36,174 nt of DNA. It comes from Actinomycetota bacterium. Its GTDB lineage: Bacteria > Actinomycetota > Acidimicrobiia > Acidimicrobiales > MedAcidi-G1. Position 1 is the stretch's first letter. Each line of letters opens with the position of its first letter. The stretch lies in contig JACNKQ010000060.1 of the NCBI GenBank assembly GCA_014381945.1, forward strand, positions 1-36,174, read 5' to 3'. Shown here in pieces: positions 6,672 to 36,052 of the stretch. The notes under the pieces are model-generated. The model worked only from the letters and a program-made list of their open reading frames with translations, was not told the origin of the DNA and did no database searches. The translations under genes were made by a program, and so were the position numbers.

Positions 6672-6715
6672 TCGCCTCCCGGTACCGGCCCTGACCCCGG
6701 ACCGGCGCCGGACCT

Positions 6716-8767: not shown

Positions 8768-8777
8768 GCGGCACCTC

Positions 8778-9013: not shown

Positions 9014-9250
9014 ACCGCAGGCTCTTCGACCGATCCTGAGGTCTACCTCCTCGACACTTCCGTGCACCTGACCGATCCGCTGGGGATCCGCAAGTTCGGC
9101 GCCCACCATGTCGTCGTTCCGGTCGTCGTCCTCGACGAACTCGTCGGGCACCCGCTGTTCGCCCATGTCACTCTCACCCGCTCCGAGCGCTCGGCCGTGG
9201 CGTCGCTGGTCGCCGGCCTCGTCGAGACCGAGCCCCTCAAGCTCGAGTAG
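9014..9250 (+). pseudogene. Remnant of a PIN domain like that of PhoH2/YlaK proteins
   Basis: The frame ending at the TAG 9248-9250 encodes VYLLDTSVHLTDPLG, then FGAHHVV and PVVVLDELVGHPL. This matches the start of the PIN nuclease domain of PhoH-type proteins (YVLDTSVLLxDP, then EVVLPVVVxEELxxK). The metal-binding Asp of LLDTS is present. The match fades about 35 residues in, and the frame stops after about 70 residues, so the rest of the PIN domain and the whole PhoH ATPase are missing. There is no ATG or GTG in frame next to the conserved start; only a distant TTG is available. I read it as a fragment of a larger gene; a very small stand-alone protein is less likely. The left boundary is approximate. 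Confidence 0.5.
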
Positions 9251-9295
9251 GGGTGCTTCCCCTCACCCTGACCGGTCCGGGCACCGGTCCCTCCC

Positions 9296-9301
9296 TAGAC
9301 T
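9296..9301 (+). promoter_or_regulatory. Putative -10 box (TAGACT) for leaderless mRNA
   Basis: TAGACT ends 8 bases before the GTG at 9310 with no ribosome binding site between them. It supports 9310 rather than the earlier in-frame GTG at 9253 as the start. Confidence 0.4.
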
Positions 9302-9309
9302 CACGCCCC

Positions 9310-10908: not shown

Positions 10909-10925
10909 GCCCTGACGTCTAGCGG

Positions 10926-10931
10926 TAGCGT
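10926..10931 (+). promoter_or_regulatory. Putative -10 box (TAGCGT) for leaderless mRNA
   Basis: TAGCGT ends 9 bases before the ATG at 10941, with only pyrimidine-rich sequence and no ribosome binding site between. It implies the acyltransferase can be transcribed separately from the membrane-protein gene upstream. Confidence 0.35.
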
Positions 10932-10940
10932 TTCCCCGTC

Positions 10941-13130
10941 ATGGCTGATCAGGGGCGCCCCGCCTTCACCTACATCCCGGGGATCGACGGAATCCGGGGC
11001 ATCTGGGTCGTCATCGGCCCGCTGATGTACCACGCCGCCACCGACACGGTCTCCGGCGGCATCCTCGGCATCGACCTGTTCTTCACGCTGTCGAGCTTCC
11101 TGATCATCTCGATCGCCCTCAACGAGTTCGAAAAGACCGGCCGCATCGACCTCAGGGCCTATGCGGGTCGCCGGGTACGTCGCCTGCTGCCCGCCCTGTT
11201 CGTGGCGCTCGGAATCCTGACCCTGTACCTGATGCTGTTCGTCCCGGTAGACCAGTACCCCCGCTGGACCGGGGCGATCGTCTCTGCGCTGGCCTACTGC
11301 GCCAACTGGTTCGAGATCTTCTCCGGCGTCTCGTACTTCGAGGACTTCCAGTACTCGCCGCTGCGGCACGTCTGGTCGTTCTCGATCGAGGAGCAGTTCT
11401 ACATCTTCGCCCCGCTGTACCTGATCTTCGTCCTCCACTTCTTCAAGAGGCACGCCTACTCGGTGATCCTCTGGACGATGGTCGCCGGCACGATCGCCTC
11501 GACCTGGTGGATGGGCCACCTCTATCCGGGCGGCGGCGACCCCTCGCGCGTCTACTACGGCACCGACACCCGGGCGCATTCCCTGTTCGCAGGCATCATC
11601 CTCGCCGTCATCGTGCGGCAGCGGGGCCCGGTCCGTGGGCGCCGGGCGCAGCTCGCCTGGGTGGTCGGGGCATATGCGGCGACGCTGTTCTTCACATGGG
11701 CCATCTTCGAGATCTCGGAACAGAGCGCCTGGATGTTCGAGCACGGCGGGTTCCTGATGGTGGCCGCCATCTCATGCGTGATGGTCTACGGCGTCGCCCA
11801 GCCCGCCGAGCCGGCCTGGCATGCATGGTTGCCGGCGTCGTTGTCGGCGCCCGGCGCCCCGAGGTACCGCAGGGTCCAGGTGGGCGCCCTGTACGCCGGG
11901 CTGTTCACCGCCGGGTGGGTCGTCGTGAGCGTGGCGCGTGGCAACGCCCCGTTCGACCACTGGCCGTACCTGCTCGGGGTCGGCACCGGCTGGTTCTGGT
12001 ACGGCTGTGCCGGCGCCACCAAGGGCCCCCTGCACTGGTTCCTCGAGTCACCGATCATCCGCTGGGTCGGCAAGATCAGCTACGGCCTCTACCTCTACCA
12101 CTGGCCGATCTACCTGCTGGTCACCCCCACCAGGGCCGCACGGCTGATACCCGGCGTCGACGTGATCGAGGGCAACAACCTGATCTGGCTGCACCTGGCG
12201 ATCACCTTCGCCGTATCGACCGCCAGCTTCTACCTGATCGAGTTGCCGGTGGTCAGGCGCCGGGTGCCGCTGCTGGACCGGCCGCTCAAGCCGATCCCGG
12301 CCCTGTCCGCCGTCGCAGTGGCGCTGGTGGCGATCCTGGGTGGCCTGCTGTGGGTCAACACCCGGCCGGCGGACGAGGCGGCCGCCTCGTCGCAGGGCCC
12401 GTGCGCCGAACAGGGCCTGCTGCCGCCATCCACCGACGACCGCCTGCGGGTGCTGGTCGTCGGCGACTCGGTCGCACTGCAGATCGGCGAGGCGCTGTGC
12501 ACCTGGGCGCTCGGCAACCCCGGCGAGATCGTGGTCCTCAACGAGGCACATCTGGGATGTGTCGTCGGCCGCTACGGCCAGAAGCGCATCCCCGAGGGCA
12601 TCGAGGGCCCGGTCGGCGAGCTCTGCTCAGCGTGGAACGATCCCGTCGAGCCCCACGTGATGCTCGACCCCGAGGTCGTGTCGTGGCCGACGGCCGTCGA
12701 GGTCTTCGAACCCGATGTCGTGCTGGCGCACATCACCCCATGGGACGTGACCGACCGGTTGGTGCCATCGCTGGGCGACGAGTGGGTCAACATCGGGATG
12801 CCGGTCTACGACGACTACATCTCGTCCGAGTACCGCCTGGCATCCGAGGTGCTGGGGGCGTCCGGTGCCCGGGTGGTGTGGCTGGAGGGTGCCCACCTCA
12901 AACGCGAGGTCCGGCCCCAGAACCACCCCGACCGCATCGACCGCCTCAACGAGCTCGTCGTTGCCGCCACCGCCGATCTCGGGTTCGTGGCGACGGTGCC
13001 GTACCGGGACTTCATCGGCGACATCGGCACCGACCGTGAGCGCCACACCCGCTTCGACGGCGTGCACCTCTCGGAGGCGGGCGTTGCCGAGGTGGGCGTC
13101 TGGCTCATGGACGGGATCCTTGCTCCCTGA
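10941..13130 (+). CDS. Membrane acyltransferase, AT3 domain fused to SGNH domain (OafA-like)
   Basis: This 729-residue protein moves acetyl or other acyl groups across the membrane onto surface glycans. Residues 1-440 are the acyltransferase-3 membrane domain: an opening GIDGIRG, the conserved His31 after helix 1, a basic RRVRRLLPA loop (77-85), RHVWSFSIEEQFYIF (142-156) and YGLYLYHWPIYLL (381-393). After a linker helix, residues 500-729 form an SGNH hydrolase-like domain with the nucleophile motif VVGDSVA (Ser510) and the terminal DGVHLS pair (Asp706, His709). This is the two-domain architecture of OafA and related O-acetylases, at the expected length. The acceptor is unknown; the preceding GT-C-like gene suggests an envelope polysaccharide. 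It is convergent with the HD gene. Confidence 0.9.
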   Translation: MADQGRPAFTYIPGIDGIRGIWVVIGPLMYHAATDTVSGGILGIDLFFTLSSFLIISIALNEFEKTGRIDLRAYAGRRVRRLLPALFVALGILTLYLMLFVPVDQYPRWTGAIVSALAYCANWFEIFSGVSYFEDFQYSPLRHVWSFSIEEQFYIFAPLYLIFVLHFFKRHAYSVILWTMVAGTIASTWWMGHLYPGGGDPSRVYYGTDTRAHSLFAGIILAVIVRQRGPVRGRRAQLAWVVGAYAATLFFTWAIFEISEQSAWMFEHGGFLMVAAISCVMVYGVAQPAEPAWHAWLPASLSAPGAPRYRRVQVGALYAGLFTAGWVVVSVARGNAPFDHWPYLLGVGTGWFWYGCAGATKGPLHWFLESPIIRWVGKISYGLYLYHWPIYLLVTPTRAARLIPGVDVIEGNNLIWLHLAITFAVSTASFYLIELPVVRRRVPLLDRPLKPIPALSAVAVALVAILGGLLWVNTRPADEAAASSQGPCAEQGLLPPSTDDRLRVLVVGDSVALQIGEALCTWALGNPGEIVVLNEAHLGCVVGRYGQKRIPEGIEGPVGELCSAWNDPVEPHVMLDPEVVSWPTAVEVFEPDVVLAHITPWDVTDRLVPSLGDEWVNIGMPVYDDYISSEYRLASEVLGASGARVVWLEGAHLKREVRPQNHPDRIDRLNELVVAATADLGFVATVPYRDFIGDIGTDRERHTRFDGVHLSEAGVAEVGVWLMDGILAP

Positions 13131-19969: not shown

Positions 19970-20025
19970 CCCCAACTGGCCGGAGCCGCATGCGTGCGAC
20001 ACCGATCTGCGCCACAATGGTGGCC

Positions 20026-20943
20026 ATGACGGCAACGGTTATCGACGGCGGGGCGATAGCAGCCGAACTCCTGATCTCGCTGCGCGAGGACATCGTGCGG
20101 TCCGAACACGGTGCGCCCGGCCTCGCCACGGTGATGGTAGGGGACGACTACGGCGCAGCGGTCTACGAACGTCGCCTCCGACACCTGGCCAAGGGACTCG
20201 GCTGCCACTACGCCCCACACCACCTCCCCGCCGATGTCGAACTGGCCGAGGTGCTGGCCACGCTCGGTGCCCTCAACGCCGACCCGCGTGTCTCCGGCAT
20301 CCTGATCCTGCGGCCCCTCCCGCCCCAGATCCCGGAGGCAACCCTGTACCGGAGGCTCGACCCCCTCAAGGACATCGAGGCCGTCCACCCGTGGAACGCC
20401 GGCCTGGTCGCCCTGGGAGAGCCCCGATTCACACCGTCCACCCCTGCGGCGGCGTTCCACATGCTCGACCGCTACCTCTTCGACTCGGGCCGCAAGCCGT
20501 CGGAGTTCTACGAGCAGTCGACGATCGTGTGGGTCGGGCGCTCGAACAACGTTGGCAAGCCGGGCATGTGGCTCGGACTCGAACGACACGCCACTGTGAT
20601 CTCCTGCGACCGCTGGTGCGACGAACACGGCCGCATGCGCCACTTCGCCAGGCAGGCTGACGTCCTGATCGTCGCCGCCGGCGTGCCGAACCTCATCGGA
20701 GCCGACGACGTCCGCGACGGCGTGATCGCCATCGACATCGGCATCAACCCGGTCACCGATCCCGAAACCGGCAGGGTGCGCCTCGTCGGAGACCTCGACT
20801 ACGACGGCGTGGCGAGCAGGGCCGAGGCCATCTCCCCGGTACCCGGAGGGGTGGGGCCCATCACCGACGTATGGCTGTTCGCCAACACGGTCAAGGCCGC
20901 CGGCCTGCCCCGTTGGGTCCACGAACTCGGGCAACCCCGGTGA
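20026..20943 (+). CDS. FolD-like methylenetetrahydrofolate dehydrogenase, cyclohydrolase residues lost
   Basis: A 305-residue homologue of FolD, which oxidises 5,10-methylene-THF and hydrolyses the methenyl product. The nucleotide site is intact (WVGRSNNVGKPG, 169-180), as are DIGINPV (237-243) and PVPGGVGPIT (271-280). The three residues needed for cyclohydrolase in the human enzyme (Lys56, Gln100, Asp125) align with Leu51 (YERRL), Leu95 (GILILRPLP) and Glu118 (KDIEA). TPCTP has become TPSTP. The protein is therefore likely a dehydrogenase only, or has another role. Its distance from the C1-amine genes is short (about 1 kb), and folD also sits near glx/sox genes in rhizobia, so a link to methyl oxidation is plausible. 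Start chosen: ATG 20026, with CACAAT ending 7 bases upstream; ATG 20017 is an alternative. Confidence 0.8.
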   Translation: MTATVIDGGAIAAELLISLREDIVRSEHGAPGLATVMVGDDYGAAVYERRLRHLAKGLGCHYAPHHLPADVELAEVLATLGALNADPRVSGILILRPLPPQIPEATLYRRLDPLKDIEAVHPWNAGLVALGEPRFTPSTPAAAFHMLDRYLFDSGRKPSEFYEQSTIVWVGRSNNVGKPGMWLGLERHATVISCDRWCDEHGRMRHFARQADVLIVAAGVPNLIGADDVRDGVIAIDIGINPVTDPETGRVRLVGDLDYDGVASRAEAISPVPGGVGPITDVWLFANTVKAAGLPRWVHELGQPR

Positions 20944-21008: not shown

Positions 21009-21860
21009 CCTGCGCCCGCCGACGACCGCTTCGACCTCGACTGCACGCGATTCGACCCGGTTGGCCTGCGGACCGCCTTCCCCCACCTGTCGCCCCCGGA
21101 CCGCCTGGAAGGGATCCACCAGGGCCCGGGCGCCGGGCACCTCGACCCCCGGGCGTACGTACGCGCCGAGGGAGCGGCCTGCGCCGCCGCCGGCGGGACC
21201 GTCGTCGATGCCCTCGTCGACTCGGTGCTCGACCTGGGCACTGCCGTCGAGATCGGTACATCGGCCGGAGTGTTCAGAGCCGGCCGGGTCGTGCTCGCCA
21301 CCGGGCCCTTCTTCGCCCACGGGCTCACACCGGCCGAGGGCCTGGACCTGACCGTCGGCACCCACACCATGCTCCACGTCGAGCCCTCCCCTGCCGACGC
21401 CGAGCGGCTGGCCGACCTTCCCAGCCTCATCGTCAGGCCCGACGCCGAGGACCGCCACTTCTTCGTGCTTCCCCCCAGGGCCGGCCCGGACGGACGGGTC
21501 GTGATCAAGATCGGAGTCCCACAGCACGGGAGACGGCTCGACGCAGACCGGACCGCCGCCTGGTTCCGCACCGACGGCGACCCCCGAGCAGCTGTCCGCC
21601 AGGAACGGCTGCTCCTCGACCTGCTCCCCGGCCTGGACGTGGCGTGGCGCCGCACGGTCCCGTGCGCCACGACCTACACCGGGAAGGGCCACCCCGTCAT
21701 CGACGACCTTTCTGACCGGGTCAGCGCACTGATAGGTGGCAACGGCTACGCCGCCAAGTGTGCCCCCGCCCTTGGCGGGCTCGCCGCAGGAAGGATCCTG
21801 GGCGAACCCTGGCCGACTGAACTCGACCGCGGCCTCTTCGAACGAGCGCCCGGTTCGTAG
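21009..21860 (+). pseudogene. N-terminally truncated DAO-family FAD oxidoreductase
   Basis: From just after a TAG at 21006 the frame reads 283 residues of a sarcosine/D-amino-acid-oxidase-like flavoprotein: GPGAGHLDPRAYVRAEGAA, RAGRVVLATGPFFAHG, HFFVLPPRAG, CATTYTGKGHPVIDD and GGNGYAAKCAPALGGLAAG. The first about 120 residues of the family, with the GxGxxG dinucleotide loop, are missing. No ATG occurs before the conserved part; the only early start is an internal GTG at 21225. The segment cannot bind FAD normally and is best read as a deletion remnant. The upstream 65 bases after the FolD stop hold no FAD loop. It is a different paralogue from the intact oxidoreductase that converges on it at 21883. 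Confidence 0.78.
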
Positions 21861-21882: not shown

Positions 21883-23223
21883 CTAACTCCAGGGATAGGG
21901 CGAGTTGCTCAACGGGTGCAGCCGGCCGGCGGCGTAGCGGGAGTATCGGAACGGCTCGAGCAGGGACTGCGTCTCGCCTACCAGTTCCTTCGCCACCAGG
22001 GCGCCCACGCCGATCATCTTGAAACCGTGGTTCGAGTCGGCGATCACGTAGACGTTGTCGCAGAAGGTGTCGAACACGGGGAAGCTGTCGGGGGTGAAGG
22101 CGCCGATGCCGCCCGAGGGGGCGTGGCTCATGAGGCTCGCCTTGCCCTCGAACCTCTCCTGGCAGTGCGACAGCGCCGACGCCCATACCGCACGGAAGTC
22201 CTCGCCGACGACGAAGTCGGGGCTGGACGGGCCGTAGGGGTCGATGGCGACATCGCGCCAGGGGCGCTCCACCGGATAGGGCATGTAGCCGCCCTGCACG
22301 CCGCCGAAGTTGAAGTCGGGCTTGTAGTAGACGCCCCACTTGCCGTCGACGAGCAGTTTGCCGTCCTCGTCGTGCAGCGGCGCATCGGCGTCGACGTGCA
22401 CGACCGGTGGCATCGTGCCCTCGTTGTTCATCAGATAGCCGGGGTCGACGTCGAGGGTGCCCTCCTGGAGGGCCCAGAACTTCCAGGTCGGCTGGGTGAT
22501 GACCTCACCGTCGACGAGTATGTCGGTGGTGTCGGGCAGGTCCAGCATCTCCCAGAGCTTCGGTACCCAGGGCCCGGCGGCGGCCACGACGTTGTCGACG
22601 GCGATGGCCTCGCCACGGTGCGTGACCACGTGGGTGACGGCGCCGCCGTCGACGACCAACTCGGTCACCAGTGTGTCCGTGACCACGTTGACGCCCTCGG
22701 CCTCGACCTTGGCCAGCAGGGCGTTTACCGTCGCCATGTTGTGGGCGTATCCGCCCTTCTTTTCGTGCAGGACGCTGGTCACTCCGGTGCAGCGCCAGTC
22801 GGCGAAGATGCCGCGCATGTAGTCGGCGGTCTCCTGCTCGCCCTCGACGAAGACCGACTCGTAGCCGATGGCCTCCTGCTGGGCGGCAATGGTCGCCACG
22901 TCGGACCGCATCTCCTCGTAGGAGATCTGGAGGTAGCCCACCGGGTGGTATTCGAATGCCTCGGGGTCTGACTCCCACACCTGGACCGAGTGGGCCATCA
23001 GCTCGCGCATGGCGGGCTGGAAGTAGTTGTTGCGGACCACGCCGCAGGCGATCCCCGAGGGGCCGGCACCGGCGTGCGACTTCTCGAGGACCACGATGTC
23101 GCTGCCGTCTCCGGTGCCGCGGGCCCTGAGCTCGCTGGCCAGGTGCCATGCGGTAGACAGGCCGTGGATGCCGGCGCCGACGATGCAATAGCGGACGGAC
23201 TCGGGGACTGGCACAGAACTCAC
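21883..23223 (-). CDS. DAO-family FAD-dependent oxidoreductase (sarcosine-oxidase-beta/MgdA-like)
   Basis: A 446-residue flavoprotein. The FAD loop VGAGIHGLSTAWHLA is at residues 15-29, followed by VVLEKSHAGAGPSGIACG and VVRNNYFQPAM. The C-terminal FAD-binding strand is VYVIADSNHGFKMIGVGALVA, as in sarcosine and dimethylglycine oxidases and the beta-like subunit of N-methylglutamate dehydrogenase. It would oxidise an N-methyl or secondary amine, giving an iminium or formaldehyde level C1 unit. The start is the GTG at 23223, after AGCGAGG. It is the last gene of the six-gene minus-strand run, 57 bases after the small 139-residue protein. No delta, alpha or gamma partner subunit is present in the window, so it may act alone or with the small protein and the separate GcvT-like fusion. 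Confidence 0.85.
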   Translation of the reverse strand: MSSVPVPESVRYCIVGAGIHGLSTAWHLASELRARGTGDGSDIVVLEKSHAGAGPSGIACGVVRNNYFQPAMRELMAHSVQVWESDPEAFEYHPVGYLQISYEEMRSDVATIAAQQEAIGYESVFVEGEQETADYMRGIFADWRCTGVTSVLHEKKGGYAHNMATVNALLAKVEAEGVNVVTDTLVTELVVDGGAVTHVVTHRGEAIAVDNVVAAAGPWVPKLWEMLDLPDTTDILVDGEVITQPTWKFWALQEGTLDVDPGYLMNNEGTMPPVVHVDADAPLHDEDGKLLVDGKWGVYYKPDFNFGGVQGGYMPYPVERPWRDVAIDPYGPSSPDFVVGEDFRAVWASALSHCQERFEGKASLMSHAPSGGIGAFTPDSFPVFDTFCDNVYVIADSNHGFKMIGVGALVAKELVGETQSLLEPFRYSRYAAGRLHPLSNSPYPWS

Positions 23224-23280
23224 GGGTGAGCCTCGCTGTTCGTTCGGGCGGGACCGAAATTCAGGATGGGGGCCGGGTAC

Positions 23281-23700
23281 CTAGTGGGCCGGGGGCTCCC
23301 AGCCCTCGAGCGCCGGTGGCGTGTAGTCGTCGCCGACCGACTTCGAGTCGGCAACCCAGGGACCGAGCTCTACCTGGTGGAACTTGCAGTGCCTCTCCTT
23401 GAGCTGGATGCCGTACGAGTTGCCCGAGATGAGGTGCTTCATGAGCACCTTGCGGGCGATCTCGTCCTCGCGGCCCTCAGGGATCTCGAAGTAGATCTTG
23501 AGGAACGCGTTCGAGTTCCGGTCGAACACGGCGGGGATGCCGTCCTCCTCGAGCAGGTGGATGTCCTCGAGCCAGTTCAGGTCCCTGCCGGGCGTGAGCT
23601 CCATCAGGTCGAGGTCGTCGACAAGGGACATGTCCTCCTGGTACTCGAACCGCTTCCCGGCGAGGACCTCTGCGTCGATCGCAATTGACTTCTGGGCCAT
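23281..23700 (-). CDS. Conserved-context small acidic protein of unknown function
   Basis: A 139-residue protein that I do not recognise. It is acidic in its first half (YQEDMSLVDDLDLMELTPG, LEDIHLLEEDG). A mixed strand-helix segment follows (NAFLKIYFEIPEGREDEIA, then MKHLISGNSYGIQL). Only one cysteine is present, so it is not the zinc-type SoxD/MgdB subunit that sits in this position in sarcosine oxidase and N-methylglutamate dehydrogenase operons. There is no signal peptide or membrane helix. It has a strong AGGAGG site that contains the stop codon of the preceding glutamate-synthase-like gene (10-base gap), which implies coupled synthesis. Its position between that gene and the FAD oxidoreductase suggests a subunit or substrate-channel partner of one of the two. 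Confidence 0.75.
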   Translation of the reverse strand: MAQKSIAIDAEVLAGKRFEYQEDMSLVDDLDLMELTPGRDLNWLEDIHLLEEDGIPAVFDRNSNAFLKIYFEIPEGREDEIARKVLMKHLISGNSYGIQLKERHCKFHQVELGPWVADSKSVGDDYTPPALEGWEPPAH

Positions 23701-23709
23701 GGATGCCTC

Positions 23710-25140
23710 CTAGTTCCCGGCCTGGGCGATGCCCCTGGCCATGAGGTCCTTCATCTCCTGCAGCGCCCGCTCCTCGCTGACCCCGGGGATGTAGGTGGTG
23801 CCGGCCAACGGAACCTTGGCCATGGCGGAGGCCTCGTGTGTGAGCGCCGCCAGGTCCTCGGGCTCCAGGCTGTGGATGTCGGTCTTGCCGCAGGCGCGGG
23901 CCAGCAGTTGGACCTCCATCGTGAGGGTGTGCAGGAAGTTGTAGACCCGCAGTGCCGCCTCGTCGACGTCGAGGCGGGCCCTCAACTCGACATCCTGTGT
24001 GGCAATGCCCACCGGACAGCGGCCGGTATGGCAGTGGTAGCACTCGCCGGCCGGCACGCCGATGGTGCCCTCATAGTCGGTGACGCCCTCGATGTGCTTG
24101 TTGCAGTTGAGGGCCATCAGCGCCGAGGTGCCGAGTGCCACGGCCTTGGCCCCCAGGGCGATGCACTTGGCCACGTCGCCGCCGTTGCGGATGCCGCCGG
24201 CCACCACGAGGTCGACCTCGTCGATCAGCCCGATGTCCTCGAGTGCCCGTCGTGCCTCCGGGATGGCGGCCATGAGCGGTATACCGGTCTCTTCGGTGGC
24301 GAGGTGTGGACCGGCTCCGGTACCGCCCTCGGCGCCGTCCAGGAAGATGGTGTCGGGACCGCACTTTGCGGCCATCCGTACATCGTCGTAGACCCTCGAG
24401 GAACCCAACTTGAGTTGGATCGGGACCTGGTAGTTGGTGGCCTCCCTGATCTCCTGGATCTTGAGCGACAGGTCGTCGGGGCCGATCCAGTCGGGGTGGC
24501 GGGCCGGTGAACGCTGGTCGATTCCGGCGGGCAGGGCGCGCATCTCGGCCACCTGCTCCGTGACCTTCTGTCCCATGAGGTGGCCACCGAGGCCGACCTT
24601 GCAGCCCTGGCCGATGAAGAACTCGACGGCGTCGGCAAGCATCAGGTGGTGCGGGTTGAAGCCGTAGCGGCTCTGGATGACCTGGTAGAACCACTTCGTC
24701 GACAGGTCGCGCTCGGGCGGGATCATGCCGCCCTCGCCCGAGCAGGTGGCGGTTCCGGCCATCGATGCGCCCTTGGCGAGCGCCTGCTTCGCCTCGATCG
24801 ACAGCGCCCCGAAGCTCATACCCGTGATGTAGACGGGAATGTCCAACTCGAGGGGCCTGGCGGCGAAACGGGCACCCAGGACCGTCCTGGTCTCGCACTT
24901 CTCGCGATAGCCCTCGATGACGAACCGGGTCAGCGTTCCGGGCAGGAAGACCAACTCGTCCCAGTGCGGGATCTTCTTGAAGATCGAGAAGCCCCGCATC
25001 CGGTAGCGGCCCAACTCGGCCTTCACGTGGATGTCGTTGATGACCTCGCTCGTGAAGATCCTGCTCTTGCCGATGACGTCGGTCGGGCGGTTGGTGTCGA
25101 TCTGGACGTCTACGCCCTTGATGTCGTTTGCCTCGGGCAT
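23710..25140 (-). CDS. Glutamate-synthase-like FMN/Fe-S subunit (MgsC/GlxD type)
   Basis: A 476-residue protein equivalent to the FMN-binding synthase domain of GltB. PVYITGMSFGALSIEAKQAL (102-121), SGEGGMIPPER, IQLKLGSSRVYDDV and the glycine-rich DGAEGGTGAGP (268-278) and VVAGGIRNGGDVAKC form the FMN barrel. The iron-sulphur cysteines lie at 367, 370 and 375 (GECYHCHTGRCPVG), close to the 3Fe-4S motif of glutamate synthase. In N-methylglutamate synthase the corresponding subunit joins an amine-derived nitrogen to 2-oxoglutarate. AGGAGG precedes the ATG by about 8 bases and overlaps the stop of the GXGXG gene 12 bases upstream. Whether the product is glutamate or an N-alkyl glutamate cannot be read from sequence. 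Confidence 0.9.
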   Translation of the reverse strand: MPEANDIKGVDVQIDTNRPTDVIGKSRIFTSEVINDIHVKAELGRYRMRGFSIFKKIPHWDELVFLPGTLTRFVIEGYREKCETRTVLGARFAARPLELDIPVYITGMSFGALSIEAKQALAKGASMAGTATCSGEGGMIPPERDLSTKWFYQVIQSRYGFNPHHLMLADAVEFFIGQGCKVGLGGHLMGQKVTEQVAEMRALPAGIDQRSPARHPDWIGPDDLSLKIQEIREATNYQVPIQLKLGSSRVYDDVRMAAKCGPDTIFLDGAEGGTGAGPHLATEETGIPLMAAIPEARRALEDIGLIDEVDLVVAGGIRNGGDVAKCIALGAKAVALGTSALMALNCNKHIEGVTDYEGTIGVPAGECYHCHTGRCPVGIATQDVELRARLDVDEAALRVYNFLHTLTMEVQLLARACGKTDIHSLEPEDLAALTHEASAMAKVPLAGTTYIPGVSEERALQEMKDLMARGIAQAGN

Positions 25141-25152: not shown

Positions 25153-25941
25153 CTAGAGGACGAGTTTGCGCTCGGATGGCTCGAGCGCGTCGTAGTTGTG
25201 GAGCACCTTGCCGCACTCGAACTTCTTGAGGTCCGGAGGAGTGCCGAGGCCGTAGATCTCGAACTTTCGGTTGATGAACTCGTGGTCGGAGTCGTCCATC
25301 TCGGCGGGTACGCAGTCGACGCCGAGCGAGGCGATGTTGCCGCCGACGTAGATGAGTCCGTCGTACATGGAATCGCCCAAACCGTCACCGGCGTCACCGC
25401 AGATGACCTGTCGGCCGCGCTGCATCATGAAGCCGGTGTTGATGCCGGCGCGGCCTGTGACGATGATCGTGCCGCCCTTCTGGTCGATGCCGGTACGGGC
25501 ACCGACGTTTCCCTTGATGACCAGGTCGCCACCCCGCAGCGCTGCACCGGTGAGGGAGCCGGCGGGCCCCTCGACGACAACGGAGCCGGACATCATGTTC
25601 TCGGCCAGGGACCAGCCGACGCGGCCGTTGATCTGGACCTCGGGTCCGTCGATCAGGCCGCAGGCATACCAGCCGGGGCTGCCCTCGAACGTGATGTGGC
25701 AGCGCTTCAGGATGCCGACTCCCAGCGAGTGCCTGGAGCCGGGGTTCAGGATCGTGACGTCGTTGACGCCCTCGTCGTAGACGATCCGCTTCAACTCGAG
25801 GTTGATCTTGCGGGTGGTGAGGTCGGTGGCGTCGATGACGGCCCGGTCACCGTCGATCTGGGCCGTCATCGGCGGTTCGGGATCCGGCTCGACGAGCCCC
25901 CGGGCGTCGTAGACGACCCCGCTCCTGGTCAGACCTGCCAT
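25153..25941 (-). CDS. Glutamate-synthase GXGXG-domain subunit (MgsB/GlxC type)
   Basis: A 262-residue right-handed beta-helix protein corresponding to the C-terminal structural domain of GltB. Repeated G-x-x-G turns are visible: PGSRHSLGVGI, GRVGWSLAENMMSG, GPAGSLTGAALRGGDLVIKG, NVGARTGIDQKGG, GRAGINTGFMMQRG, CGDAGDGLGDSMYDG and YVGGNIASLG. In N-methylglutamate synthase this subunit (MgsB) holds the amidotransferase and FMN subunits together. The gene overlaps the amidotransferase gene by 13 bases and is followed after 12 bases by the FMN subunit gene, so the three are made as a set. The C-terminus (DLKKFECGKVLHNYDALEPSERKLVL) resembles the GlxC tail. Confidence 0.9.
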   Translation of the reverse strand: MAGLTRSGVVYDARGLVEPDPEPPMTAQIDGDRAVIDATDLTTRKINLELKRIVYDEGVNDVTILNPGSRHSLGVGILKRCHITFEGSPGWYACGLIDGPEVQINGRVGWSLAENMMSGSVVVEGPAGSLTGAALRGGDLVIKGNVGARTGIDQKGGTIIVTGRAGINTGFMMQRGRQVICGDAGDGLGDSMYDGLIYVGGNIASLGVDCVPAEMDDSDHEFINRKFEIYGLGTPPDLKKFECGKVLHNYDALEPSERKLVL

Positions 25942-26858
25942 GTGAGCACCTCCCGCTCGAAGGGGTCACGGGTGTCGACCTCACGGCCTACCAGGGCACT
26001 GATGGCCATCTCCTCGGAGGCCATGACCACCAGGTCGTCGCTTTCGAACAGCACCAGCGGCTTGGCCGCCATCTCGTCCTTGGCGATACCGAGTTCGTTG
26101 CTGGTGGCAACGAGGTAGGTGAACACGCCGTCGAAGTCGTCGAGGCTGCCCTTCATGGCCGTCTGGAGGTCGGTTCCCTCTGCGAGCTTCTCGGCCAGGT
26201 AGACCGCGATGATCTCAGAATCACACTCGGACTGGAACCGGTGTCCGGACCTCTCCAGGCGGCGCCGCCACTGGTGGTAGTTGGTGAGCTGGCCGTTGTG
26301 GACAACCGCCACGTCTGCAAAGGGGTACGCCCAGTAGGGGTGGGCGCTGGCCAGGTCGACGTCGGACTCGGTCGCCATGCGCACGTGGCCGATGCCGTGG
26401 GTGCCGCGGATTCGGTCCAGGCCGTACTGCTCCAGCACCGTTTCTGCGTCGCCGAGGTCCTTGACGATCTCGAGCGAACTGCCGAGCGAGAGCACCTCGC
26501 ACCCGGGGATGTCCTCCAGGTAGTCGGCCAGCGGCTTGAGGTCGCCGTCGTAGCGGACCGTGGCGCGAAAGGCGTAACCGGTGTCGCTGTGGATCGTCGC
26601 CAGGACGGCACCGATCTTGGCGAGCCGGGACTCGACCTCGGCCCGGTTGCGCTCGAGCCGCTCGTCGACGCCGAAGCTCCCGTATTCGTTCGGCTCGGCG
26701 AGCATGAAGCGGATGGTCACGAGGTCGTCCGGCTCGCTGTAGAGGGCGTAGCCGGTCGAATCCGGCCCGCGGTGCTTCATGGACTGGAGCATCGTGGTGA
26801 GCTCCGAACCCATGTCCGATGGCCCATCGCGGTGGATGATGCCGGCGATGCCACACAT
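25929..26858 (-). CDS. Class II glutamine amidotransferase subunit (MgsA/GlxB type)
   Basis: A 309-residue N-terminal-nucleophile amidotransferase. MCGIAGIIHRDG exposes Cys2, the catalytic nucleophile after removal of Met1. HRGPDSTG, HVRMATES, the VVHNGQLTNY strand and SECDSEIIAVYLA complete the glutaminase pocket. It is a stand-alone version of the GltB/PurF amidotransferase domain and in MgsA acts on gamma-glutamylmethylamide in place of glutamine. AGGAGA lies about 9 bases before the ATG. It is 54 bases downstream of the glutamine-synthetase-like gene and overlaps the next gene by 13 bases. Glutamine or a gamma-glutamyl-alkylamide are both possible donors. Confidence 0.9.
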   Translation of the reverse strand: MCGIAGIIHRDGPSDMGSELTTMLQSMKHRGPDSTGYALYSEPDDLVTIRFMLAEPNEYGSFGVDERLERNRAEVESRLAKIGAVLATIHSDTGYAFRATVRYDGDLKPLADYLEDIPGCEVLSLGSSLEIVKDLGDAETVLEQYGLDRIRGTHGIGHVRMATESDVDLASAHPYWAYPFADVAVVHNGQLTNYHQWRRRLERSGHRFQSECDSEIIAVYLAEKLAEGTDLQTAMKGSLDDFDGVFTYLVATSNELGIAKDEMAAKPLVLFESDDLVVMASEEMAISALVGREVDTRDPFEREVLTWQV

Positions 26859-26912: not shown

Positions 26913-28325
26913 CTACGGGAGGATGTCGAGGTATTCTTCGACGTCCCAGTCGGTGACGGTCGCCATGAAGCGTTCCCATTCGTCGCGTTTGTAGTGCTCG
27001 AAGACGCGGTACATGTCGCCGGGAAGGGCGCTCTTGACGACCTCGTCGGCATCGAGGGCATCGAGGGCCTCGCCTAGCGACAGCGGTATCTTCTTGACCT
27101 CCTTGCCGGCTTCCATGGCCTCGTAGATGTTGCGCTCCTCGGGCGGGCCCGGGTCGAGGTTCCGGTCGAGGCCGTCGTCCATCGCCTTGATGAGGGCGGC
27201 AAACGAGAGGTACGGGTTGACCGCCGAGTCGACCGAGCGGTATTCGAAGCGGCCCGGTGCGCTGATGCGCAGGGCGGTGGTGCGGTTCTGGAAGCCCCAG
27301 TCGGCGAAGACGGGCGCCCAGAAGCCGGTGTCCCAGAGGCGCCGGTACGAGTTGACGGTGGGGGAACCCAGGCAGGTGAGTGCCCGGAGGTGCTCCATGA
27401 TGCCGCCGATGGCCTTCATGCCGATCGGGCCGGGGATCTGGGGGTTGTCGCCCTCGGGCATGAACGTGTTGTTGCCGCCCTCGTCGGGCTCGCCGTCCCA
27501 CAGCGAGATGTTGTGGTGGCAGCCGTTGGCGGACACGCCCATGAACGGCTTGGGCATGAAGCACGGGAAGGCACCCAGCTCGCGTCCGACCTGCTTGCAG
27601 ATCTGGCGGTAGGTGGTGAGCCGGTCGGCGGTGAGCTCGGCCCGGTCGAAGTTGAAGTTCAACTCGAGTTGTCCGGGGGCGTCTTCGTGGTCGCCCTGGA
27701 TCATGTCGAGGCCCATGGCCTCGCTGTACTCGACCACCTTGTGGATCAGCGGCTGCAGTTCGGCGAACTGGTCGATGTGGTAGCAGTTTGGCTTGGTCAT
27801 GCCCTCAACGGTTGGCTTGCCGTCGGCGTCGGCCTTGAGCCACATCATCTCGGGTTCGGTGCCGGCGCGCAGGTGCAGGCCGGTCTTGGCCTCGAACTCG
27901 GCGTGGATGCGCTGGAGGTTGCCACGGCAGTCGGAGGTGAGGAACATCCCACCGTCGACCTCCTCCTCACGTCCCCGGAACAGGGTGCAGAAGACCCGGG
28001 CGGTCTTGGGGTCCCAGGGGAGCTTGCAGAACGTGTCGGTCTCGGCGACGCCGACCAGTTCGCGTGACTCGGGTCCGTAGCCGATGTAGTGGCCGTGCCG
28101 GTCGACGAAGAGGTTGGCCGTCGAGCCGTAGACGAGTTGGAAGCCCTTGTTGGCGATCGTGCCGAAGTGCTTGGCCGGGATGCCCTTGCCCATGATCCGT
28201 CCGGTGACGGACACGAACTGGCAGTAGAGGTACTGGATTCCCTCGGCTTCGATCTGCCGCTGGATCTCGGTGACCTGCTCCTGACGTCCTTCGGCCTCGA
28301 TAAACCGCTCGATGTCGGTGGACAT
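26913..28325 (-). CDS. Glutamine-synthetase-like ligase, possible gamma-glutamylmethylamide synthetase
   Basis: A 470-residue ligase of the GlnA/GlnT superfamily. It joins ammonia or an amine to the gamma-carboxyl of glutamate using ATP. Active-site landmarks are GTEPEMMW (Glu157, Glu159), GDHEDAPGQLELN (Glu214, Glu221), the metal-site NGCHHNIS (His270-271), NSYRRLW, and RFEYRSVDSAVNPYL. The start at 28325 has a strong AGGGGGA just upstream; a longer frame exists but is not supported. It is the first gene of the minus-strand run, directly before the three glutamate-synthase-like genes. That order is the one expected of gamma-glutamylmethylamide synthetase followed by N-methylglutamate synthase. 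A role as a biosynthetic glutamine synthetase is less likely given the context, but the amine is unproven. Its promoter region is the AT-rich island at about 28400. Confidence 0.88.
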   Translation of the reverse strand: MSTDIERFIEAEGRQEQVTEIQRQIEAEGIQYLYCQFVSVTGRIMGKGIPAKHFGTIANKGFQLVYGSTANLFVDRHGHYIGYGPESRELVGVAETDTFCKLPWDPKTARVFCTLFRGREEEVDGGMFLTSDCRGNLQRIHAEFEAKTGLHLRAGTEPEMMWLKADADGKPTVEGMTKPNCYHIDQFAELQPLIHKVVEYSEAMGLDMIQGDHEDAPGQLELNFNFDRAELTADRLTTYRQICKQVGRELGAFPCFMPKPFMGVSANGCHHNISLWDGEPDEGGNNTFMPEGDNPQIPGPIGMKAIGGIMEHLRALTCLGSPTVNSYRRLWDTGFWAPVFADWGFQNRTTALRISAPGRFEYRSVDSAVNPYLSFAALIKAMDDGLDRNLDPGPPEERNIYEAMEAGKEVKKIPLSLGEALDALDADEVVKSALPGDMYRVFEHYKRDEWERFMATVTDWDVEEYLDILP

Positions 28326-28568
28326 GCTTCCCCCTGCTCGTGGATTGGCTCCGGTACCGCTACCGGTTCGACAACGGTGTGTCCGTCGTCGCTCGACTAT
28401 CATATATATCAAGTAGCCTTACTGCTAGTGAAATTCTGCTAGATCGAAATCCGCCGGTTGCGGAGGACTGTGGTCGGCATCCACCCTGTTCTGCAGTCGT
28501 TCCGGGTGGCAGAATCGGACGATCCACCAGTACCAATCGTGGGAGACGACCGTTGAGGGAAAGCGACC
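28326..28568. promoter_or_regulatory. Divergent promoter region with AT-rich island
   Basis: This 243-base gap separates the ligase operon (leftwards) from the DUF1989-GcvT fusion gene (rightwards). Around 28397-28445 the GC-rich background drops sharply: TCATATATATCAAGTAG is followed by TTACTGCTAGTGAAATTCTG. Several TATAAT-like hexamers are available in both directions (for example TATATA on either strand), so both promoters and an operator probably lie here. No coding frame is credible. The ligase is preceded by AGGGGGA and the fusion gene by GAGGGAAAG. Confidence 0.5.
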
Positions 28569-30917
28569 ATGTCTGACGCCGGTCCCAGACTGCTCCTCCC
28601 CGGCCTCGCTGACATCGCCCCGGGCACCGAGCGCTACCGCGTCAAGGGCGGCGCCGTCACCGCCCTACTGCTGGAGCCCGGCGACGAGCTCCAGGTGGTA
28701 GACCCCGAGGGCTGCCAGCCCGTCGAGGTCGCCGCCTTCGACCGCTCGGGTACATGCCACACAGGGCTCCTCGGTGTCGAACAGGGCACCCCCGCCACCG
28801 GCATCGCCGAGATCCTCACCGCCGGCCGGGAGGGCGGTCGCCGCGACGCACAGCGCATCGCCGACGCCCTCACCGACCAGGACATCGACCTCGGCACCGC
28901 CAATGCGGTCCACCTCTTCGCCCCCGACTCTCCCGCCGGAGAAACCGCCAGCCTCACAGCACAGGCCCCAGTCATATGCGTGGTCGGCGTGCCCGGCCCC
29001 CGGATGCTCCCCCACGAGCAGAACCCACCCACCGACGTGATCGTCTGGGTCCACCGGGCACGGCTGCCCGAACCGGGCATGGAGGTCCTCCCCGACCCGC
29101 TGGCCGACCAGAACCAGGACATCCGCATTCCCAGGGCAACCGCCGTCGCCTACCAGGTCAGCGCCGGCGAGTTCATCCAGGTCATCGACGTCGAGGGCCG
29201 CGAGTGCTCCGACTTCCAGGTCTTCACCACCGCCGGCCTCGAGGCAGGCATCGAACGCACCCTCGACGCCACCATGACCCGCAGCCTCATGGGGGCCAGC
29301 TACCCGATGCCGGGCCTGTTCGCCAAGTACTTCGCAGTCGACGGCCAGCCTCTCGTCGAGATCATCCAGGACACCGTCGGCCGGCACGACACCTTCAACA
29401 CCGCCTGCAACCCCCGCTACTACGAGGAGATGGGCTACCCCGGCCACATCAACTGCAGCGACAACTTCAACCGGGTCCTCGACCCCTTCGGCGTCACCCC
29501 CCGCAGAGGCTGGGAGGCCATCAACTTCTTCTTCAACACCAACCTCGACGATGACAACCAGATCTTCTTCGAGGAACCCTGGTCGCGTCCCGGCGACTAT
29601 GTCCTGCTCCGGGCGCTCACCGACCTGGTGTGCGTCTCCTCTGCCTGCCCGTGCGACATCGACGCCGCCAACGGCTGGAGGCCCACCGACATCCATGTCC
29701 GCGTCTACCCGGCGACCAACACCTTCAAGAAAGCGACGGCCTTCCGCATGACGACCGATGCCGAGCCCGAACTCACCAGGGAGACCGGATTCCACCCCAG
29801 GACGTCCGGGCACACCCGCAACTTCACCGAGTACGCCGGCTTCTGGCTGGCCAGTTCGTACACACGGCACGGCGCCGTCGAGGAGTACTGGGCCTGTCGC
29901 CAGAAGGCCGCCGTCATCGACCTGTCGCCACTGCGCAAGTACGAGGTCGTCGGCCCCGATGCCGAACTGCTGCTCCAGACCTGCGTCACCCGCAACATCC
30001 GCAAATTGGCGGTCGGGCAGGTCGTCTACACGGCGATGTGCCACGACACCGGCGGGATGATCGACGACGGGACGGTCTTCCGCCTCGGCCGGGACAACTT
30101 CCGCTGGATCGGCGGCTCGGACGCGAGCGGCCAGTGGCTGCGCACCCAGGCCGTCGAGCGCGGCCTCGAGGCGTTCGTGCGCAGCTCCACCGACCAGTTG
30201 CACAACATCCAGGTGCAGGGGCCGCTCAGCCGGGAGATACTCGGCGAGGTGGTGTGGACCCGACCCGACCAGCCCACCATCGACGAACTGGGCTGGTTCC
30301 GACTCACGATCGCCCGCGTCGGTGGTGCCCAGGGCATCCCGCTGGTGGTCTCGCGCACCGGCTACACGGGCGAACTCGGCTTCGAGGTGTTCTGCCATCC
30401 CGACCACGCCCCGGCCGTCTGGGACGCCGTCTTCGCAGCAGGCGGCCCGAGAGGCATGGTGCCGATGGGCCTCGAGGCGCTCGACATGCTCCGCATCGAG
30501 GCCGGCCTGGTCTTCGCCGGCTACGAGTTCTGCGACCAGACCGACCCCTTCGAGGCGGGCATCGGCTTCACCGTGCCCCTCAAGACCAAGGAGGACGACT
30601 TCATCGGGCGTGAGGCCCTGCTCGCACGCAGTGCCAGCCCGCAGCGGAGGCTCGTCGGCCTCGAACTCGCCGGCGACGAGGTCGTCGGCCTCGGCGACGG
30701 CGTCTACGTCGGCCGCAACCAGGTCGGCACCGTCACCAGCGGCGTGCGCTCGCCGATCCTCGGCCGGAGCATCGCCCTCGCCAGGGTCGCCGTCGGATAC
30801 GCCGAGAACGGCACGCAACTCGAGGTCGGCAGGATGGACGGCCATCAGAAGCGCCTCCCCGCGACCGTGGTCGGCTTCCCCCACTACGACCCGGAAAAGG
30901 AACGCGTGCGGGCCTGA
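28569..30917 (+). CDS. Fusion of two DUF1989-like domains with a GcvT-like aminomethyltransferase
   Basis: A 782-residue protein with three parts. Residues 20-165 form a diverged DUF1989-like barrel (GGAVTALLLEPGDELQVVDPEG). Residues 185-390 form a fuller DUF1989 domain (AVAYQVSAGEFIQVIDVEG, then the Cys-rich LVCVSSACPCDIDAANGW with Cys355, 360 and 362, and PTDIHVRVYP). Residues 415-775 are a glycine-cleavage T-protein/DmdA-like fold with GGMIDDGTVFRLG (the catalytic Asp region), SRTGYTGELGFEVFC and GLEALDMLRIEAGL. T-proteins bind tetrahydrofolate and take up a methylene or methyl group. I infer that this enzyme passes a C1 unit from an N- or S-methylated compound to THF. It is divergent from the ligase operon and has GAGGGAAAG upstream. 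The role of DUF1989 is not established; its cysteines may bind metal. Confidence 0.87.
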   Translation: MSDAGPRLLLPGLADIAPGTERYRVKGGAVTALLLEPGDELQVVDPEGCQPVEVAAFDRSGTCHTGLLGVEQGTPATGIAEILTAGREGGRRDAQRIADALTDQDIDLGTANAVHLFAPDSPAGETASLTAQAPVICVVGVPGPRMLPHEQNPPTDVIVWVHRARLPEPGMEVLPDPLADQNQDIRIPRATAVAYQVSAGEFIQVIDVEGRECSDFQVFTTAGLEAGIERTLDATMTRSLMGASYPMPGLFAKYFAVDGQPLVEIIQDTVGRHDTFNTACNPRYYEEMGYPGHINCSDNFNRVLDPFGVTPRRGWEAINFFFNTNLDDDNQIFFEEPWSRPGDYVLLRALTDLVCVSSACPCDIDAANGWRPTDIHVRVYPATNTFKKATAFRMTTDAEPELTRETGFHPRTSGHTRNFTEYAGFWLASSYTRHGAVEEYWACRQKAAVIDLSPLRKYEVVGPDAELLLQTCVTRNIRKLAVGQVVYTAMCHDTGGMIDDGTVFRLGRDNFRWIGGSDASGQWLRTQAVERGLEAFVRSSTDQLHNIQVQGPLSREILGEVVWTRPDQPTIDELGWFRLTIARVGGAQGIPLVVSRTGYTGELGFEVFCHPDHAPAVWDAVFAAGGPRGMVPMGLEALDMLRIEAGLVFAGYEFCDQTDPFEAGIGFTVPLKTKEDDFIGREALLARSASPQRRLVGLELAGDEVVGLGDGVYVGRNQVGTVTSGVRSPILGRSIALARVAVGYAENGTQLEVGRMDGHQKRLPATVVGFPHYDPEKERVRA

Positions 30918-31098: not shown

Positions 31099-34000
31099 TC
31101 ACGCCTCAATGAGTCCGAGTTGCTCCTTGCGCTTGTCGGCCCACTCGGAGATGATCATGTCGACCGCCATGCCGATGGCGGCGACCGCCATGCCGGCGAT
31201 GATCGCCCGGCCGCTGTCGACGTTGGGCTGCGCCTCGATCAGGTCGCGGGCGAGGCCGCCGGTCTTGATGAGGCCACCGATCATCACCATGAAGAGGCCG
31301 AACATGATCGTCTGGTTGATGCCCAGCATGATCTCCGGCACCGCCAGCGGAACCTTCACCTTCCACAGCGTCTGGCGCTTCGTGCAGCCCGACATCGTCG
31401 AGGCCTCGACGAGGTGGTGCGGAATGTTCCGGATGCCGAAGATCGTGTAGCGGATGGCCGGCACGCCCACCGACATGACGACGGCGAAGACGACGGCGGT
31501 GTCGGAGACCGAGAAGAACATGATCGCCGGCAACAGGTAGACGAACGAGGGGAACGTCTGGAAGGCGTCGAGCAGCACCTGCACCACGGAATTCCGGCGA
31601 TCCGATGCAGAGGCCCAGATCCCGAACGGCACACCGGCGGCCGCTGCGAAGAACACGGCGAACGTGAGCTGGTACAGGCTGAACATCGCCGGGGCCCAGA
31701 AGCCGCTCAGGGCGATGAAGGCGAAGAAGCCCGACGCAAGGATCGCCAGGCGCCTGCCGTTGACGAACCAGCCGATCGTGAACAGGAGCAGGACAGCAGC
31801 GACCCACGGAACGGTCAGGAAGGCGTCGCGTAGGGGCAGCAGGGCATAGCGCTCGAGGTGGTCGCGGAACCAGATGGTGCTCTGATAGAGGCTGATGTCA
31901 TGGCTCTGGGCGACGATGCTGCTCGTCGCCCCGGCCAGGGGACCCTTGAGGAGCAGGGCGAGGAAGACACCCGTGCCCACCGTCACCGCCGACGTGAACA
32001 GCGCCGGAAAGCCACTGACCGGCGTGGAGACCCTGTCGGCCGGAGAACCGTCCGTTCCACCGAAGCCTCGTCGCAACGTGTCGAACACGAGACCTACGAC
32101 GAGGGCGACGAGGGCGAACTTGAGGGCATCGGCGTTCTGGCTGACCGGGCCGTCGATGATGATCCCGAGCAGTACGACCAGCCCGACGCCGATCGCCGCT
32201 GCAGACACCATTGCCCCCGGGAGGTGCTTCCCCTCCGTCGCCGATCCGTTGCCACCGAACACGGTGCCGAAGACGCGCCGGAGGACATCGAGTCCGAAGC
32301 AGACCACGAGCACCACGACCGCCACCTGCAGGATGCCACCGAGGTTGTCCCGCACCTCGCCCGGCGTCAGCAGGCCGACGACGACCACAGCCACCAGCGC
32401 CGCAGCGGCACCGGCGGGGCCCTTGTGTTGCTGCCACAGCGCCACGCCCTCGACCCGTGGCGAGTCGGAGACCGTGACGATCCCCCGGCGAAACCCCTCG
32501 ACGAGCAACACGGCGACCCCGAGGATGACGAGAACCTGGACGACCGGCCTCGCGTTCTGGATCGCCCCGACGTTGACGACGATGTCGAGGATGACGCCGA
32601 GGGCCAGGGTCCCCACGGCACCGATCAGGTAGGGGTGCCGGCCGGCGGACGGGGCGTCGGGGGAAGCCCCTGAAGAAGCGTCGGCGGCAACGCGGGCGCC
32701 GAAGACCCGCTGCAACACCAACAGGATCCCGGCGAGGATCAGGACGACGAACGCCGACTGGATGATTCCGAGCCGGTTGTCACCCAACAGGAACAGCAGG
32801 CCGACCACGACGACGACGACACCACCGGCGTAGGCCACCCGGGCATGGTCGTCGAGCCCGTCCATGCGGGCCGAGGATCGACCGAGCAGGTCGATGACCA
32901 GCCCGATCGCCAGAATGGCGACGACCAGCACGAGGGCGTTGTCGAGTCCTTCACCCGCGAGGTTCTGGACCGGCAGGATGATCTTGTCGTCGAGGTGCCA
33001 TCCCAGCCAGTCGATCCAGTCGTACACGGACCAGACGAGGGCGTTGTCGACGAACCAGTCTGTGGCCTGGCGGACGTGGTTCTGCATCCAGCCCTTCGGG
33101 ACCCGCTGTGCGGCATCCCAGGTGTTGGCCATGAAGAGGCCGATGGCGAGGACGGCGCCGGTGGCCAGCAGGTAGGGATGCCTCCTGACGAACGACTCGT
33201 CGGCGTCATGGTGGACGGGCTGCAGGTTGCCGAGACCCTGGCTGAACCGGTCGAGGGTGATGGCCATGACGACGACGGCGATGCCGATCTCCACGCCGGA
33301 GCCGATCTTGAGGCCGGTGAGGCGGAACAGGAGGTCCTGCCCGAGGCCGGCGGTGCCCACGAACGAGGCGATGACCACCATGGCGAGGCACTCCATCACC
33401 ACCTGGTTGATGCCCACCAGGAGGGCGCTGCGGGCTGCCGGCATCTCGACCTTCCACAGCATCTGCCGTGGTGTGCAACCGGACATGACGCCGGCCTCGA
33501 CGACCTCCTTGGAGATCCCCTGGATGCCCAGGATGGTGAGGCGGGCCATCGGGGGCATGGCATAGGCGATGGTTGCGATGACACCGGCCTTGTGCGACAC
33601 ACCGATGAACACGCCGATCGGGATCATGAACGTGAAGTGCGGCATCGCCTGGGTGAGGTTCAGCAACGGGTTGAGGAACTGCTCGACCCGACGGCGCTTG
33701 GCGGCGAAGACGCCCAGCACGCTGCCGATGGCTGCAGCGATCGGGACGGTGACGAGCACCGCCGAGAGCGTGATCATCGTCTTGTCCCAACGGGTCTCGG
33801 CACCCTCCTTGAGGGGAGGCTCGCCGATGAACGAGGCGTAGACGATGAACCCGACGGACAACAGGGCCAGCTTCCAGCCGCCCAGCTTAAAGCCGGCAAC
33901 GCCGAACAGGCCGGCGATCACGATCCAGGGAAGGGCGGGGATGTCCCACGGCTCGTAGAAGCCGATGAACGCATACCAGGCGACGAGCAGGGACACTGCC

Positions 34001-35940: not shown

Positions 35941-36008
35941 GGTGGTCCGGGCCTTCTCGGATCTGGGGACTGGCTGGTCGTTGGCGGTGAACGGCCCATG
36001 GCAGGCGA

Positions 36009-36052
36009 CGGGCCGGTCGTGGAGGAGGGTGGGATCCTCCACGACCGGCCCG
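36009..36052 (-). promoter_or_regulatory. Strong intercistronic hairpin after the binding-protein gene
   Basis: The arms, 36009-36026 and 36035-36052, are perfect reverse complements over 18 bases (for example GGGCCGGTCGTGG against CCACGACCGGCCC) around an 8-base loop. There is no T tract after it on the minus strand. Such stems after binding-protein genes usually protect the upstream mRNA or cause partial termination, so that the binding protein is made in excess over the ATPase and permease. Confidence 0.6.

Follow-up and report, generated by a model that had tools for sequence, protein, structure and literature searches.

The closest described relatives of the gene cluster analyzed here are the N-methylglutamate synthase (MgsABC/GlxBCD) systems that accompany GmaS in Paracoccus aminophilus (pAMI6) and Acidithiobacillus caldus (mpAca1.1): they have the same three subunits, in the same order, together with a ligase of the glutamine synthetase (GS) family. 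GmaS-like ligases make gamma-glutamyl amides. The three subunits also recall glutamate synthase (GltB/GltD), each of GlxB, GlxD and GlxC having its counterpart in a different part of GltB. Another system, the N-methylglutamate dehydrogenase or heterotetrameric sarcosine oxidase SoxBDAG (MgdABCD), includes a small subunit, SoxD/MgdB, which is encoded beside methylamine-glutamate genes and bears a conserved cysteine (zinc) motif. Trimethylamine N-oxide (TMAO) demethylase, Tdm, releases dimethylamine. The step after Tdm could be filled by the dimethylamine monooxygenase DmmDABC, whose component DmmC is the DUF3445 protein (PF11927) of the P. aminophilus dmmDABC operon (PMC4543880).

The sequence under study, hereafter the window, is a stretch of 36,174 nucleotides from an Actinomycetota bacterium and is a TMAO/methylamine locus. 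Its features are listed below; X139 denotes the 139-residue protein of interest.

19990-20943, plus strand: FolD-family methylene-THF dehydrogenase/cyclohydrolase (matches below curated cut-offs)
21883-23223, minus strand: FADox, a FAD oxidoreductase of the SoxB/DAO family, variable companion (PF01266, 1.2e-37; TIGR01373, 68.5 bits, below cut-off)
23281-23700, minus strand: X139, ATG to TAG, 139 aa, outside catalogued families; proposed accessory subunit of a GlxBCD/MgsABC-like complex
23701-23712, minus strand: GlxD stop and X139 ribosome-binding site (TAG at 23710-23712 overlapped by AGGAGG)
23710-25140, minus strand: GlxD/MgsC-like FMN subunit, 476 aa, of the X139-linked clade (PF01645, 1.6e-91)
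25153-25941, minus strand: GlxC/MgsB-like GXGXG subunit, 262 aa (PF01493; synteny)
25929-26858, minus strand: GlxB/MgsA-like class II glutamine amidotransferase, 309 aa (PF13522/PF13537; synteny)
26913-28412, minus strand: GmaS-like ligase of the GS family (best PDB match, glutamate-methylamine ligase 9qur)
28569-30917, plus strand: Tdm, divergent from the glx operon (NF053776, 1216 bits against a cut-off of 1100)
31099-34920, minus strand: double ABC permease, 1273 aa (assigned by neighbourhood and similarity among relatives only)
34930-36042, minus strand: ABC ATPase of the proV betaine/choline type (TIGR01186, 321.9 bits against a cut-off of 326.6)

The minus-strand operon runs from the GmaS-like ligase through GlxB, GlxC, GlxD and X139 to FADox. 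Amidotransferase, GXGXG and Glu_synthase subunits adjoin a GS-family ligase, as in an N-methylglutamate synthase module, and GlxB, GlxC and GlxD of the window are probably N-methylglutamate-synthase-like. The best PDB match of GlxD is GltB (7mfm, 118 bits); this subunit retains the cysteines of the 3Fe-4S type motif. The ligase scores 324.5 bits against TIGR03105 (type III glutamate--ammonia ligase), below the cut-off of 469.6, and its start codon is tentative: a TTG is listed, with homology from near residue 12-44. The double ABC permease is kept near the cluster in several relatives; its two halves align to each other in relatives, which is unusual for a betaine-type importer. We also observed a DAO-like frame on the plus strand (21012-21860) that matches relatives of 275-300 aa over nearly the full length of the frame and lacks a start codon (ATG, GTG or TTG) ahead of 21225; a 5' truncation, a frameshift or an unusual start is possible.

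X139 lies between the FMN synthase subunit and the flavoprotein FADox, as the first-pass annotation had it. Nine nucleotides separate the GlxD stop codon from the X139 ATG, and 57 nt separate X139 from FADox. The translational coupling to the FMN subunit proposed on that occasion is plausible, the AGGAGG motif overlapping the GlxD stop codon, although the two genes themselves do not overlap. The single cysteine (C105 in the window translation) and the lack of a zinc motif noted then are both confirmed. In an alignment of 25 sequences C105 is swapped for Ala or Ser in several relatives and is therefore not a conserved metal ligand; X139 carries no redox or metal motif of its own. The same alignment, which covers several families, has 46 invariant columns, including NWLED, VFDR, ARKVL and GN-YG, and residues 95-139, the C-terminal segment, are strongly conserved. 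The pN/pS ratio of X139 is 0.17-0.26 against five close relatives (79-91% identity) and, less reliably estimated, 0.46-0.59 against four that are more distant. X139 is a real gene under purifying selection.

X139 also represents a conserved family of proteins that none of the searched libraries lists. It scores above no curated cut-off in Pfam, NCBIfam or PHROGs, retrieves no significant PDB sequence in single-sequence or profile searches, and matches no part of glutamate synthase in profile searches. The best family score of the window protein is to Lsr2 (E 0.024, 14.7 bits against a cut-off of 29.6), and the lowest E-value among the 25 members is 0.0034 (LED repeat, 3 members); both were treated as chance, as were influenza PA (E 0.46-1.3) and CMF34 (E 0.13). 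AlphaFold models have a pLDDT of 48.6 with 7 sequences and 57.2 with 20 sequences. Blocks between residues 21 and 90 reach 67-83, with a strand at 65-69 and a helix at 78-91; this agrees loosely with the strand-helix centre seen at first reading, in a model of modest quality (mean pLDDT 57). The C-terminal segment (95-139) has low confidence when folded alone; conserved as it is, it may be an arm bound to a partner, or else the alignment is simply shallow. Foldseek with the model returned nothing at E <= 0.001. A dsRBD fold is not claimed, the best VIA-align hit (4wft, dsRBD-like) having a Z of just 2.3 from a low-confidence model. Profile and structure searches, the check suggested at the outset, thus assign X139 to no known family, and our literature search found no paper on it.

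A scan by exact words of one sequence, which reaches close relatives, found X139 in 21 loci of GTDB contigs. Carriers amount to 6 of 296 genomes in the class, 12 of 396 in the phylum and 39 of 121 in the order of genome G486. We tabulated 70 loci; dropping two repeats (L039, L053) left 68, and 65 were testable for an upstream GlxD once three with less than 200 nt upstream (L021, L022, L114) were set aside. GlxD stands directly upstream of X139, on the same strand, in 65/65, so that the proposed check for a conserved family always adjoining glxD/mgsC came out positive. A FADox gene starts within 200 nt downstream of X139 in 27 of the 68 loci and does not in the other 41. These two counts tie X139 to GlxD, with FADox as an optional companion. 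Gene fusions between X139 and GlxD had been suspected from long open frames; the loci themselves show nothing beyond an in-frame upstream extension or the opposite orientation.

The association is with one particular type of GlxD. Among the 396 phylum genomes, 11 of the 12 X139 carriers are exactly those with a GlxD of at least 81% identity; in the twelfth (G383) X139 adjoins a GlxD fragment of 94 aa where the contig ends, and the remaining GlxD copies reach at most 58% identity. In a GlxD tree of 51 rows the 36 X139-linked sequences form one side of a branch with 100/100 support and a length of 1.99; this tree carries a long-branch warning, and the split is present in 100% of 200 bootstrap trees. 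Canonical MgsABC sets are found without X139. A second GlxD copy, of 52-58% identity, is present in 8 of the 12 phylum carriers. In G456 this copy belongs to a complete gmaS-mgsABC set by soxA and soxB (L136) and is 77% identical to P. aminophilus MgsC. The two types therefore coexist in one genome and are probably not redundant. We found 462 plasmid records with a GlxD relative, all below 60% identity; searching plasmids with X139 itself gave just two 40-residue matches (37.5% identity, E 1), and a phage search found no X139.

Several differences separate the X139 clade from canonical MgsABC besides the extra gene after glxD and the long stem in the GlxD tree. X139-type GlxD is 52-53% identical to its P. 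aminophilus pAMI6 and A. caldus mpAca1.1 counterparts, and the subunits are longer than those of P. aminophilus (GlxD 476 vs 441 aa, GlxC 262 vs 227, GlxB 309 vs 295). The X139-linked ligase shares 31-35% identity with four canonical ligases, those of L048 (second copy), L073, L088 and L089. According to PMC7948447, RhGmaS has catalytic Asp177 and Glu186 and pocket residues Gln175, Glu179 and Asn188, and takes dimethylamine poorly (Km 16 mM, vs 27 uM for monomethylamine). The window ligase motif QGDHEDAPGQLELN keeps these catalytic and pocket residues, the numbering being mapped by motif and not by structure. The motif is absent from a fifth match (L070, 29% identity), probably a ligase of a different kind. 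In two X139 clusters, L047 and L110, the GS-family ligase is divergent (53-54% identity, vs at least 71% in the others), and in L047 it lies on the opposite strand; replacement of the ligase is possible there.

One close relative of the window, L053 (G244 contig 66, of the same length as the contig of L011; flipped coordinates 5975-11860), has an intact X139 cluster, with X139 94% and GlxD 99% identical to those of the window. Its FADox is a 53-aa C-terminal remnant and its Tdm is in two fragments, a natural decay around the retained module.

In what we consider the probable reading, a distinct GlxBCD/MgsABC-like clade has X139 as its dedicated fourth component, which most likely serves as a structural or regulatory subunit. 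The unit of inheritance would comprise the GmaS-like ligase, GlxB, GlxC, GlxD and X139. The ligase would join an alkylamine to glutamate, GlxB would split the amide and release the amine into the complex, and GlxD (FMN, 3Fe-4S) would join the amine reductively to 2-oxoglutarate. X139 may dock on GlxD by way of its core, folded at about residues 17-93, and of the conserved arm at its C-terminus; it may stabilise or gate the amine path in its own clade. We place X139 on GlxD, with somewhat better than even likelihood, because GlxD is its one constant neighbour; physical binding, docking of the C-terminal arm and any catalytic role are inferred. Against the subunit reading, there are canonical MgsABC sets that have no X139, and in a divergent homologue, encoded where a chimeric-looking contig ends (L123, described below), most of the C-terminal arm is missing.

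Other readings of X139 have to be weighed against this one. The window is GC-rich, with long ORFs on both strands, and X139 might be a spurious frame, for example a shadow of the 140-aa ORF on the opposite strand at 23266-23688. One opposite-strand frame is indeed almost open (0 or 1 stop) in 10/10 sequences checked, so that openness alone is no proof of the X139 gene; the low pN/pS of the minus-strand frame and the conservation of its protein across families contradict a spurious origin, to which we give practically no credence. The first-pass annotation suggested a folded, undescribed partner subunit where SoxD/MgdB would stand, which can be taken as a new partner for the flavoprotein. X139 proves to be undescribed, conserved and probably folded, but its constant companion is glxD/mgsC. 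A flavoprotein partner is favored by the placing of X139 in the window, between glxD and FADox, and by the 27 loci with a nearby FADox; the 41 loci with none within 200 nt contradict it, as does the decay of FADox beside a well-kept X139 in L053. As for SoxD, PF04267 is found above cut-off in 16/16 X139 genomes searched, and another contig of the genome from which the window comes carries soxB, soxD, soxA and soxG consecutively, with NCBIfam scores of 498, 85, 817 and 67 bits, respectively, which are clear though below subfamily cut-offs. X139 has no match to PF04267 or TIGR01374 at E <= 1 in Pfam and NCBIfam; in hhalign its profile gives E 0.47 and a probability of 0.1% with the SoxD of its own genome, and no similarity to the SoxG. 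Thus, like SoxD/MgdB, X139 is small and encoded beside methylamine-glutamate genes, but it differs in profile, has no conserved cysteines and coexists with SoxD. That it is a new flavoprotein partner replacing SoxD/MgdB is very improbable.

An assembly or maturation factor for GlxD, serving FMN or Fe-S loading or the protection of an exposed surface without being a subunit of the finished enzyme, is another reading: an operon-encoded maturation factor or regulator would leave the same genomic pattern as a subunit. Obligate linkage to one clade of one subunit is also expected of a dedicated chaperone, and the lack of a redox or metal motif in X139 agrees with such a role. On the other hand, no X139 accompanies the canonical MgsC of L088, which has a cysteine motif of this kind, and conservation over most of this small protein fits a permanent interface as well or better, which is not decisive. 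We regard a maturation factor as rather unlikely. The dedicated subunit remains our preferred interpretation, and the question of its substrate can be posed separately.

X139 co-occurs with Tdm, which we scored at E <= 1e-100. Tdm is found in 11 of the 396 phylum genomes, 10 of which carry X139 (Fisher p 3e-17), and in 12 of the 121 genomes of the order of G486, 11 of which carry X139 (p 1.2e-5); these p-values take genomes as independent, which related genomes are not. Over both sets, 19 of 21 distinct Tdm genomes carry X139. One Tdm genome without X139 (G603) has DmmC, homologues of DmmB, DmmA and DmmD, and a canonical gmaS-mgs set, that is, the textbook route. The other (G669) has neither X139 nor DmmC; a FADox relative and no glx gene were found within the 19 kb that surround its Tdm. 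Conversely, X139 occurs without Tdm in 2 of 12 phylum carriers (G486, G584) and in 28 of 39 carriers in the order of G486, this genome belonging to both sets. In L135 (G456), Tdm is flanked by two FADox paralogues (2476-3675 and 11438-12745), with 41% and 51% identity to the FADox of the window, so that FADox may accompany Tdm and not X139.

DmmC was detected in 0/16 X139 genomes and in 0/121 genomes of the order, together 52 X139 genomes without DmmC. Since 82 of the 121 DmmC-less order genomes also lack X139, its absence there is not specific. Among 11 genomes picked for a canonical GlxD without X139, five have DmmC (p 0.006, indicative only, as the set was hand-picked and one member was chosen for its Tdm). 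Either DmmDABC or the X139 module is carried by 20 of the 21 Tdm genomes. No homology was found between the two, and they would represent different solutions, a monooxygenase vs a glutamate-linked route.

We may therefore hypothesize, tentatively and as a possible rather than a probable reading, that X139 marks an undescribed glutamate-linked route for dimethylamine, replacing the dimethylamine monooxygenase after Tdm. Dimethylamine is proposed as the substrate because of the Tdm association and the missing monooxygenase. The X139-linked ligase would convert dimethylamine and glutamate to gamma-glutamyl-dimethylamide, from which GlxBCD-X139 would form N,N-dimethylglutamate; FADox or a Sox enzyme would then yield N-methylglutamate, and SoxBDAG would return glutamate. 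Our literature search found no paper on a bacterial N,N-dimethylglutamate route. A serious competitor, itself a little short of an even chance in our estimation, is that the cluster encodes the usual GmaS/MgsABC pathway for monomethylamine plus one additional component, dimethylamine being left to another enzyme, for example FADox. This concerns the substrate and is compatible with X139 as a subunit. The ligase retains the pocket residues equivalent to Q175, D177, E179, E186 and N188 of RhGmaS; the 28 Tdm-less carriers of the order also favor monomethylamine, as does the X139 cluster of L053, intact though Tdm and FADox are broken. In addition, no second GlxD is listed in 4 of the 12 phylum carriers (G000, G335, G373, G497), so that these four may depend on the X139 type for any use of methylamine. 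Yet the other eight have an extra GlxD copy, and in G456, where that copy sits in a full gmaS-mgsABC set near sox genes, two monomethylamine pathways would be redundant. The presence of the X139 type in 19/21 Tdm genomes and the absence of DmmC from all 52 X139 genomes likewise argue against an ordinary monomethylamine pathway.

A dimethylamine route of this kind would be of interest beyond Actinomycetota. According to two reports, dmmDABC is absent from all SAR11 representatives, where tdm and gmaS are ubiquitous, and this dimethylamine gap is a metabolic bottleneck for which an unknown isoenzyme has been suggested (PMC5520151, PMC8918994). In SAR11, glxBCD are the genes SAR11_1313-1315 (PMC3160333). 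For the missing dimethylamine step the X139 module offers a concrete candidate, as it travels with Tdm in Actinomycetota and DmmC is found in 0/52 carriers searched. If the dimethylamine route is true, the SAR11 step could be filled by its counterparts in AT-rich marine bacteria. Leaving dimethylamine aside, X139 still defines a testable protein family, as the obligate fourth gene of an operon resembling that of N-methylglutamate synthase. The X139-linked set is a separate branch of a known kind of enzyme system, with a link to dimethylamine that is testable and possibly important; surveys that take every gmaS-like gene as a monomethylamine marker may merge two pathways.

A divergent homologue was found in an IMG/VR contig (L123). 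Its gene starts nine nucleotides after a GlxD C-terminus and specifies a protein of 136 aa with 32-33% identity to X139 (hhalign E 1.5e-11; pairwise BLASTP E 7e-15). The GlxD fragment is 64-72% identical to X139-type GlxDs over its 85 aa and 50-62% to others, for which just 78-79 columns are comparable. This indicates that X139 exists, much diverged, in some AT-rich genome; the contig has 29-35% GC, and SAR11 as its source is a guess from this base composition. In the same contig, the ORF at 4563-5330 has 30 aa like a T4-like cyanophage/pelagiphage protein joined to the GlxD C-terminus at the shared word NPVG, a junction 0.8 kb from the contig end. We take this junction as an assembly chimera or a recombinant and do not claim a viral origin of X139; further scans of viral contigs for X139 returned the L123 contig again, or nothing.

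Sequence comparison also reveals variation in the cysteine motif of GlxD. Many canonical MgsC, in rows L073, L075-L080 and L089, lack the last motif cysteine (GRDPAG or GKDPAG), which is kept in X139-type GlxD, in L088 and in others (TGRCPVG). This suggests that the 3Fe-4S cluster may have been lost or altered in part of the MgsC family.
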